A stretch of DNA of 64,000 nucleotides from positions 3,534,001-3,598,000 of the forward strand of contig NC_089450.1 of the NCBI RefSeq assembly GCF_026210795.1, given 5' to 3'. Position numbers and translations under genes: made by a program. Under the pieces are notes generated by a model. That model ran no database searches and was not told where the DNA came from. It saw only the letters and a program-made list of their open reading frames with translations. This document shows, piece after piece, positions 18,373-60,571 of this stretch. The DNA comes from Rhizophagus irregularis. Lineage: Eukaryota > Glomeromycota > Glomeromycetes > Glomerales > Glomeraceae. Within the stretch, counting starts at the first letter, position 1, and the number at the start of each line of letters is the position of its first letter.

Positions 18373-20088
18373 AAAAAAAGTATGTTTAGTCAAAATTTTA
18401 TTAAAATTAAATTATACAAAATTACAAATATATGAAAATTTTTTCATTCCCATTGTACAATAGAAATATCTAGACATATTTACATCAAGGTAATACATCA
18501 TATAAAAAAATAAAATGAAAACAAAAATAAAAATAAAAGAAAATATTTATTTTATTAATTATTTTATTTTTAAATTTTATTATAAATAGTATTAGAATTT
18601 TACTTAGTTAAAGAAAAATAGTATGGTAGTTAAGAATTGTATTATAGTATTCAAATTATACAAAAAAAGCATTATTTTTAGTAGTATAATTTAAGATAGT
18701 TAATTTCATGAACAAAAGATTATCTATATTTTTTGTTATATTTAAAATCTTACATTATTTAATAAAAACCTATTTTTTTTAATTAAACATTTAATATTAT
18801 TTTACATAATTATTTGTGATCAACTTAAAACTTTCCTATTACTAATGTCATTTTACATGATTATTTGTAATCAACTTAAGACTCCTATTAAATTAAACTC
18901 TAGTTAACTTATTAAAGTGTTAAAGTTTTTCAGTTACTTTAATCATTAATAGAATAATAATATAAATATATATACCGGCTTCAGTTCAGATATATATTGT
19001 AAAAACAAATATAAGTATAGCATAAAGTAATGCTTTGAATAAATTAAATAAATCAGGTCTAATTACAAGTTGAGTCAAATTAAGTTCAATTTAATAATTT
19101 TCCTGAATTGATATAAATGAGTCAAATAATAAGTTAATCATAAATTGAGTTAATTTTGATTTCAAATCAAAATTGACTCAATTTATATGACTTGAATTGA
19201 AATCAATATTATTTATTACAATTAACATAATACATAAATCTTTTATTTAATAATTATTTATGATTATCTATATTTTTTAAAGGCGATAGTTATTTGTATT
19301 CCAATTTTGTTATTTGTACCCTTCCTTTAGCCAATATTATGTACTGATACATGATATTGCTTGGCCAAATTTTCCTTAATTCGGCTATAGGGTATATTGA
19401 ATAACAAAATCGTGGGAAAGTATAAATAATAATGGCCTTTTTAAATTATTCATACCAATTTTTTTTATATTGATTATATCAATTTTTTTTCTTTAAATAT
19501 TACAACTTTCCAATTTATATATTAATTAGTTTAAGATACCAAAAATTTAAATTCTAGTAGTTCTTTACAAAAAACTAGTACAGTTTAATCTCACTTTATA
19601 TTAGTTAAAAAATCAATAAAAGTATAATATAGTAAGTAAGTATATTGTTTGTAATAAATTTTTTAATAATTTTGTATATAAAATTATGTCAATTTAAATA
19701 ATTAAGCACTAAATATAAGTGAATTAGTGGAAATATAACAAATCTTTACAAATACTTACAAAAGAAACATTTCAGTAAAGTTGAATATAAAGTAAAAAAT
19801 ACTGGTAAAATAAATAAGTTTATTACAAAAGAAAAATTTGTATTATATATATAAAATAAACAATTTTAAAAAGTATTTTAATTAATATTAAAACTATATT
19901 AGTAGATACAGTTAGTATACAGCTTGCAATAATATTCAAAATATTTTACAAGTATTTTTAGTATCTTTATTTTTCATTTAATAATTCTCATAAATATTAA
20001 CACATTAGAATATTAATAAAATGCTCTGGGTTATTTTGCATTTATACTTAGTAATGTATGGACTTCTTTGAATTTCCTTGGGGGTGAC
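18373..20088. other. A/T-rich stretch with small palindromes
   Basis: No gene is supported. A 45-base near-perfect palindrome lies at 19141-19185 (TAAATTGAGTTAATTTTGAT against its complement). A weaker inverted pair, TTATTTGTATTCCAATTTTG at 19288 against the complement of 19390-19432, may mark a decayed foldback element. Confidence 0.4.
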
Positions 20089-20270
20089 GAAAACAAGTAC
20101 AGTATGGAATCCTATGTATGTATGTATGGTGACCTATGTATGGATGTATGGTGGCCTATGTATAGTATATTACTATTGTGATAACTATACCGTATGAAAA
20201 TTAACACCATACATACCATACATTGACCACCATACATACATACATAGGATTCCATACTGTACTTGTTTTC
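20089..20270. mobile_element. 182-bp MITE with perfect 43-bp inverted repeats
   Basis: GAAAACAAGTACAGTATGGA at 20089 onward is mirrored without mismatch over about 43 bases at 20228-20270. TA-CAGTATGG ... CCATACTG-TA inside the arms resembles the TA plus CAG start of Tc1/mariner ends. The centre carries TATGTATG repeats. Perfect arms indicate recent activity or strong hairpin conversion. Confidence 0.85.
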
Positions 20271-40025: not shown

Positions 40026-40638
40026 TATACTTGTGTCCAAAATTATTTTAGTATTACGGAAATACGTAATTACGTAATTCTGTAATTATTAAGTAATTCA
40101 TTAGAAAAACTCTGTATTCCATAATTGATTTCGGACTCCGTAATTAATTTCGTATTACGAAAATATTTGGCCAGAATTAGCCTTAATTTTGGCCGATTTA
40201 TATATAAAAACTTTAACAAATAATAACTTGGCACCCAGTGATCCGCTTTGGATGATCTTACTACCATTTGATTCGTCTTGATAAGACGATTCTAATGGTA
40301 GTAAGATCATTTAAATCAAATCACTAGATCGCGATCTGATACCAATAACTTTTAAATATTTATAGCGTAATAGCTCCGCCAATTTCAATGCTAGAAAGAT
40401 GATCTTACCGCCATTAGAATCGTCTCGTCATGACGAATCGAATGGTGGTAAATTCATTCAAATCTAATCACTAGATCGTGCTCCGACACCAAAATTCATT
40501 AAATGTTTATAGTAATTTTACTCTATCAATATCGGTGCTATAGAAATGAAACACATATCATTAGATTCGCCTCGATGAGACGAATCGAATGGTAGTAAGA
40601 TCATCGAAATCTGATCACTAGATCCCGAGATATAAAGG
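40026..40638. mobile_element. hAT-like element of the TATACTTGTGTCC family, copy 1 (right end missing)
   Basis: Nearly identical base for base to 48174-48787, starting TATACTTGTGTCC. It contains GGAAATACGTAATTACGTAA, and three separate stretches of ACCATT(C/T)GATTCGTCT-type palindromes. After GAGATAT it stops matching and is replaced by another element end (40640-40776), so about 140 bases of the right end are missing here. Confidence 0.85.
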
Positions 40639-47464: not shown

Positions 47465-49510
47465 ATGATGGACAACAAAAAACATAATTTTTCTCCTCAC
47501 CCTTCTCCCCTTATTAAATTTGGTCAAATTAATGTTAATGGTTTATGTTCTCCAGTTTGACAACAACATTTGCTTAATTTCTTTCTTCACTCTTCTTTTG
47601 GTGCCTTGTCTCTAAATGATACCCGCCTTTCCCCTTCAAATGCTAAATTTATTTTCAATAATGAACATTCCCAGCATCATTTTAGATCCTATTGGGCCTG
47701 TTCGACTTCTTCTCGTCCCCATGATGGTGTTGGCATTTTGCTTTGTAATCCCCTTTATAAACATGTTCAAACAATTGAGTTTTGGAACGGTCATCTTCTT
47801 AAATTAGATCTTTTTTTTCATCAAACAAAAATTTCTATTATTTCTTTATATTATCCTCCTTTTGGTTCCGTTCATCAATCTATTTGTAATGATCTTATTG
47901 CCAAACTTCTTTCTTGACTCGATCATGCCCGTGCTAATAATTATTTTGTAGTTATCGTTGGCGACTTCAATGTTGATGAAATCGCTCATTCCAACTATTC
48001 ACCCAATCATTTTAAACTTTTTCGTTTACTTTCCTCTCAGTTTTTTACTGATCATCAAGCTCATTCCACTACCGAGGGTCCTGATCCCACCTTTTATTAT
48101 GCCAATGGATCTTCTAAACTGGATTATATCTGGTCTTCACCTGGTTTTCCTGCTCCTGGTCTCTTCTCACACGTATACTTGTGTCCGAAATTATTTTAGT
48201 ATTACGGAAATACGTAATTACGTAATTCTGTAATTATTAAGTAATTCATTAGAAAAACTCCGTATTCCGTAATTAATTTCGGACTCCGTAATTAATTTCG
48301 TATTACGAAAATATTTGGCCAGAATTAGCCTTAATTTTTGCCGATTTATATATATAAACTTTAATAAATAATAACTCGGCACCCAGTGATCCGTTTTGGA
48401 TGATCTTACTACCATTTGATTCGTCTCGATAAGGCGATTCTAATGGTAGTAAGATCATTTAAATCCAATCACTAGATCGCGCTCCGATACCAATAACTTT
48501 TAAATATTTATAGCATAATAGCTCCGTCAATTTCAATGCTAGAAAGATGATCATACCGCCATTAGAATCGTCTCGTCATGACGAATCGAATGGTGGTAAA
48601 TTCATTCAAATCTAATCACTAGATCGTGCTCCGACACAAAAATTCATTAAATGTTTATAGTAAATCAACTCCATCAATATCGGTGCTATAGAAATGAAAC
48701 ACATATCATTAGATTCGTCTCGATGAGACAAATCGAATGGTAGTAAGATCATCGAAATCTGATCACTATATCCCGAGATATTCGCAATTTCGCACTATTA
48801 TACAAATTTCGGAATTTTGGAATACGTAATTAATTTCGTAACACGTAATTAATTACGTAATTACATAATTAATTACGATTTCGTAATTTCGGATTTCGGA
48901 TTTGCCAATTGAATTTCAGAAACAACTATACTCACACGTGGTTGCTTGCCCCAATCTTTTTGATCGTCCTTTCACAGATCACAAAGTTCTTACAACTGTT
49001 TTTGACTTTAGCTCTTGCTTGGCTATTTTGGCCAAATCTCGACTCAAACAGAAAAAAGAAATGCGTACTATTTTCTCTTATACTTTCACTTCAACTGAAC
49101 AATGGAATACTTTTACTGCTGAAGTGGATGATTTTCTTGGAGTATATTTAGATAAACAATATAGTTCTTGTCTTGATTTCTCTTCTCTTTCTTTTGATCG
49201 TATGTGGCATGCTTTGAAAGTCGCCATACTTAGTGCTGCAATTGACACATTACCCTTTCATAAGGTTTCCAACACACACCGACATTCATATTCTCCTGAA
49301 TTAACTAAACTTATTGCTATCAACAAGTTTTTAAATCGATTTTTATATCGCCTTACTACTCGTCGTTCTAATCGGCCTACTCAAATTGCGCAAATGACTG
49401 CTGCTTTACCTTCCCATCTTGAGAATCTTGCATCCTTGCTTCCTGATTATTTAGTTCCTACCTATTCTACAACTCCTGTATCTGTATTTAAATCATTTTT
49501 ACAATCATAG
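47465..49510 (+). pseudogene. LINE ORF2, APE-type endonuclease part
   Basis: ATG 47465 begins MMDNKKHNFSPHPSP. Landmarks of the apurinic-like endonuclease are IKFGQINVNGL near the start, RPHDGVGILLCNPLYKH, ISIISLYYPPFGS, VVIVGDFNVDE (catalytic GDFN), GSSKLDYIWSSPG and, after the insert at 48174-48930, FTDHKVLTT (catalytic DH). Joining 48173 to 48939 keeps the frame. In-frame stops are TGA at 47558 and 47915 and TAG at 49508. A linker with the KSRLKQKKEMRTIF and TFTSTEQWNTFTAEVDDFLG segments leads toward the reverse transcriptase. In life this enzyme would nick target DNA. Confidence 0.8.
48174..48930. mobile_element. 757-bp hAT-like element of the TATACTTGTGTCC family, copy 2, inside the LINE
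   Basis: The ends TATACTTGTGTCCGAAATT and, complemented, TATAGTTGTTTCTGAAATT are inverted repeats. CTCACACG is duplicated at 48166-48173 and 48931-48938. Removing 765 bases restores the endonuclease frame. The interior contains the palindromic GATTCGTCTCGATGAGAC motifs, and near its right end GTAATTAATTACG repeats. It is nearly identical to 40026-40638, so transposition was recent. Confidence 0.92.
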
Positions 49511-51523: not shown

Positions 51524-52993
51524 TGTGCCGATTTTTGGAATTAGTCTAAATTAAGATTTTTATAAAAATTTAATATTTTAGTAAGATTAACATTACACAA
51601 ATCTAAATTAAATATGTGTTACATATTTACGTAACTCAGATTTAATAAAAAATAAAAAAAATTTTTTTAATCAATATTCAAAAATAACGGTAATAACCAC
51701 TTCTTTTTCCCCATCACTCCCATCACTTTTCCATCATTTTTCTATTCACTTTTATTAAATATGACAAAAAAGTTTATAAGCAAATATAGCAGTTATTTTT
51801 AAGTGGTAAGTAAAAGAAAAAACTTAATATTTTATATATATAGATAAGACATATTTTTTCATAATTTTTAGCTTTAATTTATTGTTTTTTCTTTGTAAAA
51901 AATACATGCAAATAAAAAATAATTATGATGTAAAATAGTTGTAAAATGAATAATAAGATATTCTTTTTTTTTCAAAATAACTAATTATATATTTGTTTTT
52001 TATCTTTTAAAATTATTTTATTAGATTTATTCTACTAAAATCCTTAAATGGCAAATAAAATCTTTTAAATAAAGTAAAAGAATTTGGGATTCTCTTATGA
52101 AAGCATTTTTTGGTAAGAAATAAAATTTTCAGATCGGACTTTATGCAGGTGACAAAATCGTGCATTATTATTCCTGGAGATATGCTAACGTCATCATTTT
52201 ACATTCATTTGAAAGCTGAGAATTTGCTCTATCGTAAGAATCAAAGATCAGGAAAATTGGATCACTGGATGAGGCGTAATTAACGATCAAAGTCAAATCA
52301 AATTTAAAAATTAAAAATAAATATATTAGACGTAATTATTCACAATCTAGTGATTCAATTCATTCGATTTTAGGCTTATTAGATAGACCTCAATTTTCTC
52401 TTTCAAATGAATATAATTTCATTCGTGTAGCTTGCATCTACAGGTATTTAATAAATTTTTTTATATAGATTTTATCAAATTTATAAAATTTTATATTAAT
52501 AATATAATTGATGATTCCTAAACATCTACATATATTAAACGAATTATTTTAAATTTATTTTAAAGATAAAAGTTGGCATCACCTTAGGGAGCAAAGATCA
52601 TTCAAATTGAATCACTATATGTGAAGTAATTAATGATCAAATTTAGATAAAATTCAATAATATACTGAACGTGATTACTGAACAACTAGTGATTCAATTC
52701 ACTTGATTTTAGATTCATTAGATAGATCTCGATTTTCTCTTTCAAATGAATGTAAATTTATTTGTATAGCTTATTTCTACGAAGAATTATCAATGATTTT
52801 GTCATGAGAGTTATATTTGATCTTTTAAATTTTAATGATATCTTATATTAAAAAAAAATTAAAAATTATATAATTAATTAGTTTTTTTTGCATTATCTGG
52901 TATAAATTTATTGTTCTTATATAAATGATAATTTATATTTGCTTTAATAAAATTATTTTTGTATAAAAAAATTAGATTCCAAGGATCGGCCCA
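51524..52993. mobile_element. 1.47-kb non-autonomous element, TA target, inside the LINE
   Basis: The ends TA-TGTGCCGATTTTTGG and, complemented, TA-TGGGCCGATCCTTGG are inverted repeats at an apparent TA target (51522-51523 and 52994-52995). The inner sequence TGTAACACATA and the ends are shared with the element at 56392-57486. Two internal units (about 52160-52450 and 52580-52800) are direct repeats built around CTAGTGATTCAATTCA(C/T)T and TAGATAGA(C/T)CTC. No ORF. Confidence 0.75.
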
Positions 52994-53004
52994 TATGGAA
53001 AAAT

Positions 53005-54788
53005 TTGAATATATTTATGCTCGCTCAATTGGTTTCTCCTTGTGGACGTTATCTCATGAATTGGCCTGATCTTCGGTACCTTGGTATCGTTGGTCGTAAA
53101 GGTCGAATTCCTACTTGGTTTAATTTTATTGAAAATAATTTTCTTTCTTCCTTTTCTTCTTCTTTACTTTTGCCTTTGTATTTTATTAATTCTTCTTTTA
53201 CTTTAGCTTCTCCTTGTTTATTAGATCATACTGTTAAAGATTATCATTTTTATCCTCAATGGGCTATTAATCTTGATTCTGCTACTCAAACTTCATCTGT
53301 TGGCCGTGTGTGTATCACCTACAAGAAACAAAACTCGGCTATTATGTCTCATTGGCTTCCTGTATCTACCTCAGCTGATGAACGAACCTATAACCCTTGT
53401 CCTGGTTGTGCTCTTAATATTCCAGCTTTATCCAGGAAATTTGCCATTAAACAACGCTGTAATAGCGAAAAGTGCTTTTTTAATGTAATCCTATCGGAAA
53501 CTGTGGGCTATCCTACCAGAAATGCCAAAGTATTTGCGGCTTACCTTCCCATAACTTTATCTACTTCATGGAGTTATGCTACTTCTTTGGCTCTTGTTCA
53601 TTTGACAAACTCGCTCTTATCCGCTTCTCCCTCCCTTTCTCCTTTCTTTAAGGACAGAATAGAAGATGATGTCTTGCCGCCTTCTGTGCAATCCTTGTAT
53701 ACCGATGGTTCTTTCCATCCTGCCAAAGAATCGTTACCTTCTTCTATGACTTCTGCTTGGATTGCTCTTGATAATGATGGACTTATCCTTGAATCTTCAT
53801 CCATGCATCTCTCTTCTTGTTTTCCCTCAGCTTTGCGTTCTGAAATTTTTGCTGTTTTATTAGGATTAAGCGCCCTTTCCCATGACTTTTCAATCTCTAT
53901 TTATACTGATTGTAGTCAAGTAATTTCACTATGGACACGTTTAGTTATTACTCCCTTCTCACTGAAGTTGCTACAAGAACCTAATCATCTTCTTTGGCTT
54001 TCTATTCGACAACTTATTATGGATCGTAATCTTAAAGTCGATTTGATTAAAGTTCCTGCTCATGGCGATGACATCTACAATATACAAGCAGATTCTCTAG
54101 CAAAAGATGCTCATTCGTTTTTACAACCTACTGTTTTACCTTCAGCATTTTGTTATGCTCCATGCTTGTTGACTTTTAATTCTTTGCCTATTGACGTGAA
54201 TATTCATCATTTCCTCCGCTCTATAGCAGACGCTCGTGCTCTTTTATCTTTCTGTTCAATGGCACGTTTTACTGCTCTTGGTTCTCCTTCACTTTTTGAT
54301 TGGGCTGGTATATATTTTTGCCTTTCACAAATTAAAGGTTTTGCTTCGCATAAGAATGGTCGTCCTGAATTTTGGATCTTCTGTATCAAACTCCTTTTGG
54401 ATATGTGCCTACCTTAACTACTCTTCAACAACGCAAACCTTATTTATATTCTCCAGATTGGCTTTGTCCACAATGCAACTCAGCTCCTGAAGATTTGAAT
54501 CATCTTTGGACTTGTCCTTATATTCTCCCAGATCTTAATCCATGTTTAACACATCATTCTGAAATTGTTAAATTTAGAGATTCCTGCTTATCTTCGTTCT
54601 TATCTCTGAAGCCTTTGGATATTACCTTCCAAACTGGATTCTCTGCTTTAGATTGTTGGAACTATGAAACTCCTTCTCCATCCTATCTTTGGCTTACTAG
54701 AGGATTGTTACCTGCGCATTTAACGGCCTTTTTGAATCAACATTTTCCTCTCTCTGTTATATACAAGACTATTTCTCCTCTTCTTAAT
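53005..54788 (+). pseudogene. LINE ORF2, RNase H and zinc-knuckle part
   Basis: One long frame runs from 53005 to 54417 (470 residues) and a second from 54372 onward after one frameshift. The first starts LAQLVSPCGRYLMNWPDLRY. A Cys cluster (CPGC ... CNSEKC, residues 132-157) precedes RNase H. Its catalytic residues are all present: D234 in LYTDGSF, E280 in RSEIFAVL, D302 in IYTDCSQ, and H353 and D363 in KVPAHGDD...QADSLAKDA. The second frame holds TLTTLQQRKPYLYSPDWL, a zinc knuckle CPQCNSAPEDLNHLWTC and TAFLNQHFPLSVIYKTISPL. It stops at the insertion of the 54789-60277 element and continues at 60281. RNase H would remove RNA from the RNA-DNA hybrid. Confidence 0.88.
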
Positions 54789-55311
54789 CCCTATAAAAAA
54801 TATATATACAGTTAGTATACTGTATTTTCGTATTTTGCGAACAGTATATTTATAGTATTATTACCGTATAATTACAGTATTTTCACATACTGTATATATT
54901 CAGTATTCTGCACACCGTATCATATATATGGTTTGCATACAGTATATTTTTCCAGTTTCACCCGTATGTTTTATACTTGTAAACAGTAGAAAAACCGTAT
55001 GTTTTATACTAATAAACAGTATATTGTTTTATATTTTATATTGCAAACAGTATACTTTTCCAGGATAAACCGTATATTTTATACTGATAAACAGTACTTT
55101 TTTCCAGTTTAAACTGCATATTTTGTACTGATAAATAGTATATATTATTCAATTAAATCGTATATTTTATATTTGCAAACAGAATTTAAAATGCATTTAT
55201 AATCAATAAAATTTTTATTAAATAATATTAAATATACAAATATTTTTTTATAAATAATATAAATCAAAAACTAGTATAAAATAATATACTATTTGTAAAA
55301 AAAATAATATT

Positions 55312-55535
55312 AGCAAAAAAAAAAGAAATTTAATTAGTAATATTACCATTATTTTAAATATAAAAAAGGAATAATAAAAGGTTAGTAAAAAAAAAGAAAT
55401 TTAATTAGTAATATTATCATTAATTTAAATATAAAAAAGGAATAATAAAAGGTTAGTAAAAAAAAGAAATTTAATTAGTAATATTATCATTATTTTAAAT
55501 ATAAAAAAGAAATAATAAAAAGTTAGTAATATTAT
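55312..55535 (+). repeat. tandem array of about 70-bp units
   Basis: Three to four copies of a unit reading AAAGAAATTTAATTAGTAAT, ATTATCATTATTTTAAATAT and AAAAAAGGAATAATAAAAGG lie head to tail inside the 5.49-kb element, with one- to five-base length differences. Confidence 0.88.
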
Positions 55536-56159
55536 TAATATATTAGTTAGATATAAAAAAGTAATAAAACGATAGTAGTAATGTTAGTAATATATTAAAA
55601 AAATTAAATAAAATACATAAAAGTAAAAAAAAATATAATTAATATATGTTAACATATAATATTAATATAAAAATAAAAACATAAAACGGTGTACATATAG
55701 TTGTTTAATTAATATTGTTAAAATTCACCATTACAATTCCAGAGAGATATTAGTGAAAGTAATTGTTAATTGATATACGTGCATATCACTTTTTGTATAA
55801 TTAGTAGTTTGGTACAAATATATATATTATATATTATCAAAATAAGTTTTTTATTTGATTTTTATTATTATATGTTAAAATAATTTTGGTATTCATTTTT
55901 ATTGTCTTTTTTTTTCTAAAAAAAAGAAGAGAAAAGAATATTTTTGAAAAAATAAACAAAAAATAAACAATAACGTGTTATTAATGCATGTGATCGGCGA
56001 TCAGCTGAATTTTAATTGGTTAAATATAGAAATGCGAAAATTAAAAAGTAGAAGTATTTTTTTTAAAATTTAAATCATACAGATTGTTTTTAAAGTTTAA
56101 TTAGTAATTTAAAAGTTCTTTTTTTTAATAAGAAAATTTGTAAAAATTTTTCTAAATAC

Positions 56160-57900
56160 TGCTTAATTTTTAAATTAAAGCCTTAATACTAAATTAGCTA
56201 AATTAGAATTAAGAAAATTTTGTGAGAATTTTCTTTGATACTGCTTAATTTTTAAATTAAAGCCTTAATATTAAATTAGTTAAATTAGAATTAAGCAGTA
56301 TTAAGAAAAATTCGCAAGAATTTTCCTTGATACTGCTTAATTTTTAAATTAAAGCCTTAATACTACTAAATTAGTTAAATTAGAATTAACATATAGGCTG
56401 ATTTATGGAATTAAGTTTTTATATTCAAAAAACTAACTTTATTAAGAAAATGCAAATACAAGTTACATGAAAATGATAGATTCACACCGCTGATATAAAT
56501 AAAATTGATTTGATTATATTATTTTTTGATTTTTTTTAATAATATCATTAAAATTAAAAAATTTAAATATAATTGTCATGACAAAATGTTAAATAACTTA
56601 ACGTGTATGTGTGCTAGACGAATGAATTTATATTCATTAGAAAGAGGTAATCAAGAGCTATCCATAAACCAAATATCACATGAATTGGATCACAAGTTGC
56701 TGAATAATTACGTTCAATATATTTATTTTTAACCTTTGACATTGATCGTTAATATCTTCACATCTAGTAATTCGATTTGAATAATCTTTTTTCGTTCAGG
56801 TAGAGTAGATTCTGGGCTTTCATATGAATATAAATATATGTGTTTAGCATACATGTACGCCGAGATATTAACGATTTTGTTAATTGAATAAAACTTTGAC
56901 ACAAAAATTCTTAAAATTATAATTCTTACCAAAAGATGATCTTTACAGGTATTATTGGACTCTTTTTACTTTACTTAACAAGTTTTTATTTGCCATTTCT
57001 GTTTTAAATTGAATAAATTAATAAAATTAATTTTAAAAAGTAATTAACAAGTAGAATAAAATTAGTATAGTAAAAAACAAAAAAAAACATCTCAAAAACT
57101 CTAAATCATAACTCACATTTTTATTTTGTATATATTTTTACTAAAAAAAAGAAGGAAATAAGGTTAAAAATAAATGAAAAAAGATTTTTCTTATTAATAA
57201 AAATTATTAATATTTGTTTTCTTACTTACTGATTAAAAAAAACGTGCTATATATGCCTATAAACTTTTCTAAGTCACCTAACAAAAATCTGATTGAAAAG
57301 TGATTGAAAAGTGATTGAAAAAGAAAGTAGTTTCCATTGTTATTTTTGAATAAACGTTAAAAAATTTTTTTTTTATTTTTTGATAGATTTAGATCATCTG
57401 ATTATGTAACACATACAATTTAAGCTTGTGAAACATAATTCTGTGCAAATCTTTATGTTTGGCTAATTTCACGAATTGGCAGATATAAGCAGTATTAAGA
57501 AAAATTCGCAAGAATTTTCCTTAATTTTTAAATTAAAGCCTTAATACTAAATTAGTTAAATTAGAATTAAGCAGTATTAAGAAAAATTCGCAAGAATTTT
57601 CCTTGATACTGCTTAATTTTTAAATTAAAGCCTTAATACTAAATTAGTTAAATTAGAATTAAGCAGTATTAAGAAAAATTCTCAAGAATTTTCCTTGATA
57701 CTGCTTAATTTTTAAATTAAAACCTTAATACTAAATTAATTAAATTAGAATTAAGTAGTATTAAGAAAAATTCATGAGAATTTTCTTTAATACTGCTTAA
57801 TTTTTAAATTATAATTTATAAAAATGATTTATAATTGAGTTTTGAATTTAGTATTATCAATCGGACTTTGAACTTAAAAATTAAACAGTATTAACAAAAA
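56160..57900. repeat. tandem array of about 105-bp units, split by a nested element
   Basis: Units of ACTGCTTAATTTTTAAATTA, AAGCCTTAATACTAAATTAG and AAGAAAAATTCGCAAGAATT occur two to three times at 56160-56390 and about four times at 57486-57900. The array is interrupted in phase by the element at 56392-57486. GAATTAAGCAGTATTAAG joins unit to unit. Each unit also contains internal inverted repeats (GCAGTATTAAG and CTTGATACTGC). Confidence 0.85.
56392..57486. mobile_element. 1.1-kb non-autonomous element inside the 105-bp array
   Basis: The ends TATAGGCTGATTTATGGAATT and, complemented, TATCTGCCAATTCGTGAAATT match the ends of the 51524-52993 element (pattern TAT..GCCGATT..TGGAATT). The interior shares TGTAACACATA, TTCATATGAATATAAAT-like and CATCTAGTAATTCGATTTGA segments with it, in the opposite orientation. 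The unsupported ORFs at 56526-56732 and 56729-56932 lie inside. A TA target is likely but repeated TAs make the exact end uncertain. Confidence 0.65.
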
Positions 57901-58319
57901 TTCTTGTGAATTTTTTAATAATTGTGATTTTATATCAGTGAGTTTTAGGGTAGTACATATTAGCAAATACTAGTATTGTTTGATGCTTTAAAGTGTAGAA
58001 AAACTTACCCTATCACACGTCAAATAAATAAAAATTGGCTGATTTTAGCTATATTTGTCCGATTTGTGACTTTTTACAGCCGTATTACCAATTCTTAACC
58101 ACATTTTTCAGTTTTTTCACTATACAAAAAAATTGTATATACATTATGAAATATATATTTTTATAAAAAATTATATTGTAATATTGAATTAAAATTTAAA
58201 AAATATTTTATTAAGCAATATTAAATAAAAAACTAATCTTAAATAATTAAATTTTAAACAAAATACATTAAGAATATAAATTTACTTATAATTCAATGTA
58301 ATACGCACAATTATAAAAA

Positions 58320-59440
58320 ATTAATAACTCCACAAATATTAACTGTGCCTTCATTAAAATAAATATTCAAGTAAATTCTAAGCTGCTGAACAATTTTTAA
58401 TTAATAAAAGAAGTCAATTTACTTTGGCTAAAGTGCTCAAAATACGCTCTGAAGTAATAAAATGGAAAAAATAAAATTCGTAAATGAGTACCGTTGTGAA
58501 AATCGTGAATAACTCATCAAGTATTAACTGTACCCTTGTAAAAATTAATACCCAAGTAGATTTTGACCTGCTGAACAACTTTCAATTAATAAAAAAAGTC
58601 GATTTACTTTGACTAGTAAATTGCTCAAAATACGCTCTGAAGTGACAAAACGGAAAAAAATAAAATTCGTAAATGAGTACCATTTTGAAAATCGTGAATA
58701 ACTCATCAAGTATTAACTATACCTTCGTAAAAATTAATATCCAAGTAGATTTTGACCTGCTGAACAACTTTCAATTAATAAAAGAAGTCGATTTACTTTG
58801 ACTAAAGTGCTCTAAATACGCTCTGAAGTGACAAAACGGAAAAAAATAAAATTCGTAAATGAGTACCATTGTGAAAATCGTGAATAACTCATCAAGTATT
58901 AACTGTACCTTCGTGAAAATTAATATTCAAGTAGATTTTGACATTCCAAACAACTTTCAATTAATAAAAGAAGTCGATTTACTTTGACTAAAGTGCTCAA
59001 AATACGCTCTGAAGTGACAAAACGGAAAAAAATAAAATTCGTAAATGAGTACTATTGTGAAAATCGTGAATAACTCATCAAGTATTAACTGTACCTTCGT
59101 GAAAATTAATATTCAAGTAGATTTTGACATGCTAAACAACTTTCAATTAATATACGAAGTTGGTTTACTTTGGATAAAGTGCTCAAAATACACTCTGAAG
59201 TAACAAAATGAAAAAAATAAAATTCGTGAATGAGTACTGTTGTGAAAATTGTAAATAACTCATCAAGTATTAACTGTACCTTCGTGAAAATTAATATTCA
59301 AGTAGATTTTAACCTGCCGAACAACTTACAATTAATATAAGAAGTTGATTTACTTTGGCTAAAGATCTTAAAATACGCTCTGAAGGTAAAAAAATTTGTA
59401 ACTTAATACTACTGTATAATATAAAAAATGTAAATAATTC
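58320..59440 (+). repeat. satellite-like array, six units of about 186 bp
   Basis: The marker AACTCATCAAGTATTAACTG recurs at 58511, 58700, 58886, 59072 and 59258, with degenerate first and last copies at 58324 and 59436. Spacing is 186 bases in the centre and 178-189 at the edges. Other unit parts are AAATACGCTCTGAAGTGACA and ATTCGTAAATGAGTACCATT. The central copies are the most alike, as expected for unequal exchange. Confidence 0.92.
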
Positions 59441-60277
59441 CAAAAATATTAACTGTACTTTTATGATCTTAACAGTTTTAAACTTACTAAACTACTTTTA
59501 ATTAAAAGAATAAGATTTACTTCAGCCAAAATGCTCAAACCATACTTTGAAATATATGTAAAAAAAATATAATATTTGTTTATATTTTAAATTATGAGTT
59601 ATTTAATTTAAATGTATTTATATTTAAGAAAAAAATATTTTAATTCTACTTTATAAAGTATTTAAAAAGTATTTTAGTAAAGTTTTTGAGGCAAAAAAAT
59701 AATTATAACTGAAATAAAAAAAAATCTAAGTTAATAAATAAATATTAAACCGTAATACATAATCACATGTTATATATTAAAATCGAAAAATCCTATTACA
59801 AATAACCAAAAATCGGCAATTTCATGTTAAAAATCAGAAATATTATATTAAAATCAGAAATATTTATTAAAATCGGAAATATTATATTAAAATTGCCAAA
59901 AAAATCAGACAGCCATATTAAAAAAGGCAAAAATCTGATTTTTATTTATTTGACCTGTGTATATCTGTAGAAAATACGTTATAAACGTATGAATTTTAAT
60001 ATACTGTAGAATAATACGTATACCGTATCCTTTATTTACAATATTTTTGTGAACCGTATACAAAATACTGATATACAGTAGAAATGATATACGTTATAGA
60101 CGTATGAATTTAATATACCGTATCACACAGTATGTTTACCGTATACTTTATTGTATTTTTTACTAAGCACATTTTGCGAACAGTATACATTATACTGATA
60201 TGCCGTATATAAAAATGCAAACTGTATCAAAAATACGTATATACAGTGTAAAAACCGTATACATATTTTTTATAGGG

Positions 60278-60571
60278 AATGACTTTCAAGTCGAACTTTA
60301 TGGCGAAATTTGGTTGTGTCGGAATGTTCTTTTCCATGCTTGGGAAGAGTCGCAGGGTATCTCGGCTGCTTCCAAACTCCGTGACCCATCTACAAATTCT
60401 CCTTCTATTGCTACTTCTTCACAAAAACACAACTCTTCTTTGGCGTCAGTTTCTCAGGATTTCTGGATTTCTTGGATATCCTCTTCTATAATTTGGGGTG
60501 GATCATGGATCTCGCACTTGGATTTTCTGTGCCGCTTAACAGTTCAACCTCTTAGGATTTCTTTCTGGTAA
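60278..60571 (+). pseudogene. LINE ORF2, extreme C-terminus
   Basis: After the insertion the frame continues DFQVELYGEIWLCRNVLFHA, WEESQGISAASKLRD and a Ser-rich stretch, ending in TAA at 60569. GEIWLCRN is the counterpart of IWEPRNE and IWNPRSYEK in the two minus-strand LINE remnants further right. The part between 60278 and the stop has no internal stop codon, so this end of the element is better preserved than the front. Confidence 0.75.

Follow-up and report, generated by a model that had tools for sequence, protein, structure and literature searches.

A 64,000-nucleotide stretch of the Rhizophagus irregularis genome (C22:3534001-3598000, hereafter the window) contains a 5489-base element at window positions 54789-60277. 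We conclude with high confidence that this 5.49-kb element belongs to the EnSpm/CMC (tnp2) superfamily as a non-autonomous cut-and-paste DNA transposon, probably moved by long relatives that encode tnp2. The genome searched for copies and relatives comprised 146,748,485 bases on 32 contigs. An earlier note, made from the letters of the window, had described the element as one whose cargo is satellite DNA; its account of the ends was borne out, and its account of the cargo was not.

The element and its insertion site

The element is inserted into the reading frame of a long interspersed nuclear element (LINE) and has duplicated AAT. One copy of this target-site duplication (TSD) lies directly outside each end, at 54786-54788 on the left and 60278-60280 on the right. 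The two 300-base flanks, joined with one AAT, aligned with a LINE copy in L007 over 597/597 gap-free positions at 90.6% identity, and this empty-site match contains the single AAT where two surround the element. The LINE reading frame is uninterrupted across the joined flanks. Because the reconstruction is gap-free and its frame open, the bounds of the element are exact to the base.

The left terminal inverted repeat (TIR), CCCTATAAAAAATATATATACAG, occupies 54789-54811 on the forward strand. The right TIR occupies 60255-60277 on the reverse strand and reads CCCTATAAAAAATATGTATACGG in the inward direction, so that the element closes with the reverse complement of CCCTATAAAAAATATGTATACGG. With one flanking base counted in on each side, the inverted arms extend over 58 nucleotides and are 81% complementary. 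The tips read CCCTA..TAGGG, as they do in the long tnp2 element described below. These short TIRs are followed by closely spaced direct and inverted subterminal repeats, with CAGTATA/CCGTATA repeats in the left subterminal region (54789-55190, forward strand) and a right subterminal region at 59959-60277 (reverse strand). The motif C[AC]GTATA / TATAC[TG]G occurs 15 times, in every case within 450 bases of an element end, whereas 200 first-order Markov sequences averaged 1.2 occurrences and never exceeded 5. The element contains no stop-to-stop frame that reaches 120 amino acids. The exact ends, the AAT duplication, the dense subterminal repeats and the lack of a transposase, all of which had been noted earlier, are thus confirmed.

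Copies across the genome

The left terminus had 405 matches genome-wide at up to 3 mismatches, the second family described below being among them, compared to 17 for the reversed pattern. When the left 200 bases of the element were used as a query, the best 40 of 150 candidate matches scored 97–100% identity. End pairs were built from 123 listed ends (from listings of approximately 100 out of 131 and 100 out of 281 matches), leaving aside the CCCTATAAGAAAT family and the single ends at C1:27471, C1:2110766 and C2:89862. Joining unlike ends that face inward gave 34 pairs on many contigs, 23 of them with a spacing of 5.3–7.3 kb. The same three bases were found on both sides in 29/34 pairs (shuffled flanks: mean 1.8, maximum 7 in 2000 shuffles), and a four-base match occurred in two of the 34. 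A search for these termini with three-base duplications, as suggested at the outset, therefore returns many copies. The duplicated triplet varies among copies (AAT in 4, ATA in 3 and 19 other triplets in one or two each), and insertion is therefore not tied to a fixed target.

All five short copies fetched were collinear with the window element over its full length, with L003 covering it as two overlapping pieces. Eight long copies consisted of the element body with other elements inserted; among these, the C18 sequence stops at 10 kb and the C8 stretch ends before its left end. Outside the arrays, segments shared approximately 94–99% identity with the window copy; a few pieces in single copies were lower, down to 85.7%. 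Nesting was also seen in the opposite direction: an element copy at C3:2118244-2135350 (L006-L007) contains the LINE family that the window copy interrupts.

Long relatives that encode tnp2

The Pfam domain Transposase_21 (tnp2) had at least 155 matches in the genome, one of which, on C1, adjoins a matching element end. The sequence at this terminus aligns with the final 319 bases of the window element at 82% identity. Two tnp2 pieces were recognized in this copy (L025), one with an E-value of 1.5e-10 and 41.1 bits (cut-off 28.6) and the other with 3.1e-6 and 27 bits, slightly below the cut-off; the copy is without its left part (boundary at L025:1976). The right end is common to the tnp2 copies at C1, C32, C7 and C14, at 82–83% identity to the right subterminal region of the window element (L025, L027, L040, L042), and the C32, C7 and C14 copies terminate at the same base. 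On the other side, the left ends at C32:2482600 and C7:949325 show 80% identity to the window left end over its first 164 bases.

Both ends were available for the C32 and C7 copies, and a three-base duplication was present in 2/2. The C32 element spans 2482600-2504068 (21,469 bases) with TAT on both sides, and the C7 element extends over 926895-949325 (approximately 22.4 kb) with CTA on both sides. Each holds a tnp2 gene, identified via 100% (C32) and 98% (C7) protein identity to a 247-amino-acid piece of L025. The C14 stretch ends before its left end, the C8 tnp2 stretch ends before its right end, and no right end was found for the C5 tnp2 copy within the stretch examined. When a 310-amino-acid open reading frame (ORF) of the long element was compared with Pfam, no family exceeded its cut-off. 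The long element also carries many tandem arrays of its own, for example a 155-bp unit at its bases 2103-2732 and 19673-20128. The earlier note had asked for a long copy coding a transposase; what was found are 21.5-kb and approximately 22.4-kb tnp2 relatives with similar ends, with convincing similarity seen at the ends and in 92-bp-like arrays.

A 200-bp insert resembling a miniature inverted-repeat transposable element lies at L025:3854-4053, with ends CCCTGTAAAAAAT / CCCTATAAAAAAT and ATA flanks. It is also present in the tnp2 copies L026 and L030-L033.

Internal arrays, probably part of the element body

Three kinds of tandem array lie within the element. The first has a 70/71-bp unit (3.0 units, 55316-55529) and is the least constant among copies. 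The second, built of an 82/92-bp palindromic unit, forms one block at 56129-56389 and another at 57520-57811, the latter with the palindrome AAGAAAAATTCNCNNGAATTTT(T/C)CTT. The third has a 186-bp unit (5.7 units, 58323-59385). Arrays of about 70 and 186 bp had been correctly predicted; the one put at about 105 bp has a 92-bp unit. At 56581-56880 lies an inverted-repeat insert with arms that are 73% complementary, within a segment shared by each of the 13 other copies compared. Given that relatives of this insert occur elsewhere in the window (52181-52802, 74–82% identity), it is probably an old nested element, which lends partial support to the nested element proposed earlier.

In favor of an element that collects satellite arrays as cargo and seeds them at new chromosomal sites, as the earlier note had envisaged, the number of near-full 186-bp units ranges from 4 to 10 per copy (14 copies). 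There are also clusters of palindromes resembling the one in the 92-bp unit that have no listed tnp2 match close by, for example at C1:3506290-3517087 and C1:6587085-6598653. However, the 186-bp array and the 92-bp blocks were both present in 14/14 copies examined, the window copy included. The 70-bp unit was above the score cut in 11/14 copies, a cut that undercounts this unit, since Tandem Repeats Finder gives three units in the window and the cut gives two.

The order of the units also argues against acquired cargo. Between copies, 186-bp units were 96.8% identical when first was compared with first and 95.9% when last was compared with last, but 81.6% when first was compared with last; units inside one copy had a mean identity of 90.3%. 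The nearest neighbor lay inside the same copy for 13/81 of the 186-bp units and for 8/89 of the 92-bp units (two blocks pooled). Because first units match first and last match last, the arrays are best regarded as body. Given this position specificity and the fact that nearest neighbors are mostly in other copies, amplification of the arrays most likely preceded the spread of the copies, and it is mainly the middle units that turn over.

We also searched the genome with the 186-bp unit and two 92-bp units, and scored the best 40 of 550 and the best 40 of 263 candidates, respectively. An inward-facing family end lay within 8 kb of 40/40 scored arrays for the 186-bp unit and 40/40 for the 92-bp unit (chance, 0.7%); these searches favor the closest relatives, and distant stand-alone arrays thus fall outside what they show. 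No 186-bp matches were detected in the C32 tnp2 element, the rest of the window, L021-L024 or L028. Taken with the constancy and order of the units, these results make a satellite-mobilizing element very unlikely. Satellite DNA is marked by long, homogenized arrays independent of any element; the 4 to 10 position-specific units and the placement of the scored arrays by family ends speak against that label, whereas the palindrome clusters could not be assigned. Several internal tandem arrays in a family need not mean a satellite carrier.

Superfamily placement and proposed mechanism

The placement in EnSpm/CMC follows from the existence, in the same genome, of a tnp2-encoding relative with similar ends. 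The superfamily is marked by a tnp2 (Transposase_21) gene, which the long relatives carry between ends of this kind, and by a target-site duplication of two to three bases, seen as three bases in 29/34 pairs and as AAT in the window. A third mark, short TIRs leading into closely spaced subterminal direct and inverted repeats, is present in the window element. In the proposed mechanism, the tnp2 protein of a long relative would bind the CCCTATA ends and the subterminal CAGTATA/CCGTATA repeats, cut at CCC..GGG and insert with a three-base stagger. The short element would supply DNA sites only and would be moved in trans by this protein, while the internal arrays would be copied as body, with middle units gained or lost.

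Several observations weigh against this assignment. The canonical CACTA ends are absent: EnSpm ends are given as CAC..GTG in a passage of PMC12730594, and those of the window family are CCC..GGG. Since the CACTA motif is lacking, we file the family at superfamily level only. A published superfamily consensus, CMCWR, would admit CCCTA; a literature search on the word CMCWR gave no match. The three-base duplication is absent in 5/34 end pairs. Apart from the ends and the 92-bp-like arrays, comparison with the long element revealed no convincing similarity. Enrichment of the strict subterminal motif in the C32 element is only weak, with 10 matches, 5 of them near an end, compared to a Markov mean of 3.8 and maximum of 10. 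Finally, mobilization in trans by the tnp2 protein is something that we infer from sequence rather than observe.

PIF/Harbinger, Academ and Zator also make three-base duplications, and the element could belong to a group of this kind that resembles tnp2 elements at the tips only. The lack of a CAC motif at its ends would fit such a group, and three-base duplications are not exclusive to EnSpm, being described for Harbinger in a passage of PMC12730594. However, the likeness to tnp2 elements continues well beyond the tips, at 80% identity over 164 bases of the left end and at 82% over 319 bases of the right end, and includes 92-bp-like units. Moreover, long elements sharing both ends carry tnp2 genes, and it is by these genes, rather than by models for Harbinger, Academ or Zator, that the groups were set apart. 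We consider membership in one of them extremely unlikely. An assembly artifact or chance join of repeats has a negligible probability: tandem arrays are difficult to assemble, but the empty site is exact to the base, the 34 end pairs lie on many contigs with 29 duplications, and the five short copies are collinear, so that neither of the refuting conditions named at the outset, misjoined contigs or a lack of other copies, applies.

A palindromic unit shared with the tnp2 group

The 92-bp unit, units related to which adjoin tnp2 genes elsewhere, folds as single-stranded DNA far more favorably than its shuffles (z-score −3.75), of which 1/200 folded equally well. At up to 3 mismatches, the core of the unit was found 5 times within the window element, whereas the C32 element has 28 matches and L028 (a tnp2 copy of the 87% group) has 23. 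There were none in L008, in the remainder of the window or in the second short family. Genome-wide, the pattern AAGAAAAATTCNCNNGAATTTTTCTT at up to 1 mismatch gave 632 matches on one strand and 620 on the other, totals in which true palindromes are counted on both strands, versus 0 and 0 for the reversed pattern.

The 26-bp palindrome was located within 6 kb of 8/8 tnp2 loci with at least 77% identity to the C1 locus, and on both sides in 6/8. It was found within 6 kb of 0/20 less similar tnp2 loci, a subset picked by hand from C1-C6; the comparison ranged from C1 to C7:99155, the part for which zero-mismatch palindromes were listed. Because the eight loci are related copies, their co-occurrence with the palindrome does not amount to eight independent events. 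The 92-bp unit is related to those of the long relatives and probably represents a feature inherited within the group.

A more specific proposal, which we regard as possible but rather unlikely, is that the 92-bp unit is a working cis-part of the tnp2 group. The 26-bp palindrome would recur every ~70–90 bases in blocks flanking the transposase gene and would have been kept in the gene-less 5.5-kb derivative, its satellite-like appearance reflecting a transposition or regulatory signal. Such an array could be a putative multi-site docking array for an element-encoded protein. Spm has subterminal protein-binding sites, which we propose as the counterpart. Palindromic arrays beside tnp2 genes offer a concrete, testable candidate for a cis-signal.

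Palindrome clusters, some with repeated spacing, were also seen with no listed tnp2 match close by, at C1:3506290-3517087, C1:6587085-6598653, C2:831073-834554 and C5:2999685-3026018. These may be unknown relatives or stand-alone arrays.

Relation to known elements

In passages of PMC8978399, CACTA elements are characterized by their three-base duplications, their subterminal repeats and a conserved acidic triad in the transposase. The window family resembles EnSpm/CACTA (CMC; tnp2, Transposase_21) in its three-base duplications, its TIRs with dense subterminal repeats and its tnp2 relative with similar ends. It differs in ending CCC..GGG rather than CAC..GTG; moreover, the window element is gene-less and its probable partner measures 21–22 kb.

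Internal satellite arrays in such elements have precedents, contrary to the earlier view that no described family has this combination. Besides the tnp2 relative, which leads to EnSpm/CMC, CACTA elements with internal satellite arrays are described in passages of PMC8978399. Jozin, a CACTA-like element of Chenopodium, is there a 16.5-kb tnp2 element holding 5,550 bp of a 171-bp monomer, and a passage of PMC7320549 derives the satellite monomers from tnp2 fragments. Jozin is thus likewise a tnp2-group element with an internal tandem array. In contrast to the window family, it is a plant element with CACTA ends, and a similar monomer forms a CACTA-free array in another species (PMC8978399, same passages). 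Here, all scored arrays lie by family ends. The parallel with Atenspm and its satellite ENSAT1, from Arabidopsis, is drawn at the level of a table entry. A table in PMC9659126 gives this En/Spm-like element as the source of ENSAT1.

Two further non-autonomous elements disperse satellite-like repeats, according to passages on each. Cg_HINE elements of Crassostrea (PMC7492417) are Helentrons and not tnp2 elements, and Tetris of Drosophila virilis (PMC4079207) is a foldback element with its repeats within the TIRs. Among fungal groups, Plavaka (PlavakaA/B, CMCT) has a two- to three-base TSD and is prevalent in R. irregularis strains, as stated in passages of PMC11075540. Its ends, TGT..ACA or CATCA..TGATG in a passage of PMC12730594, set it apart from the CCC..GGG family.

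CMC and Plavaka families of R. irregularis have already been published, and about two-thirds of the transposable elements of this fungus are reported as unclassified (both from passages of PMC11075540). The family may already be present in that repeat library under another name. With the present assignment, a previously unexplained R. irregularis repeat becomes a transposon of recognized type, for which there is a probable partner enzyme and the ends can be tested.

Rejected partners and other repeats

Transposase-like ORFs in the long copies on C13 and C8 were considered as the partner and rejected, as they belong to a separate unit of ~12.5–13 kb with its own ends, CTTTGCTGAAACTTGGA / CTTTACAGAAACCTTGA. 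Copies of this DNA transposon lie at C13:~4520895-4534100 (L008-L009) and C8:~5258650-5271200 (L011-L012), inserted with two-base duplications (TA, AA) at two different points of the window-type element. One of its ORF pieces had 152 genome matches. No Pfam family exceeded its cut-off for seven ORF pieces of the unit or for three further ORFs in that stretch.

A 1.3–1.6-kb family with CCCTATAAGAAATATGTATACGGAAAGG ends was likewise rejected as partner, as there is no transposase in its shared part. Genome-wide, 284 such ends were found at up to 1 mismatch. This second non-autonomous family (L021, L022, L023 and L024, from approximately base 30) has CCCTATAAGAAATATGTATACGGAAAGG and TATAGGG ends and a simple three-base TSD in 3/4 loci (CGG, CAG, CTG), the fourth locus being a compound copy.

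Elsewhere in the window, a 147-bp unit forms two arrays, at 40251-40628 and 48399-48772, with nearly alike consensus sequences that hold the palindrome GATTCGTCTCGTCAGACGAATC.

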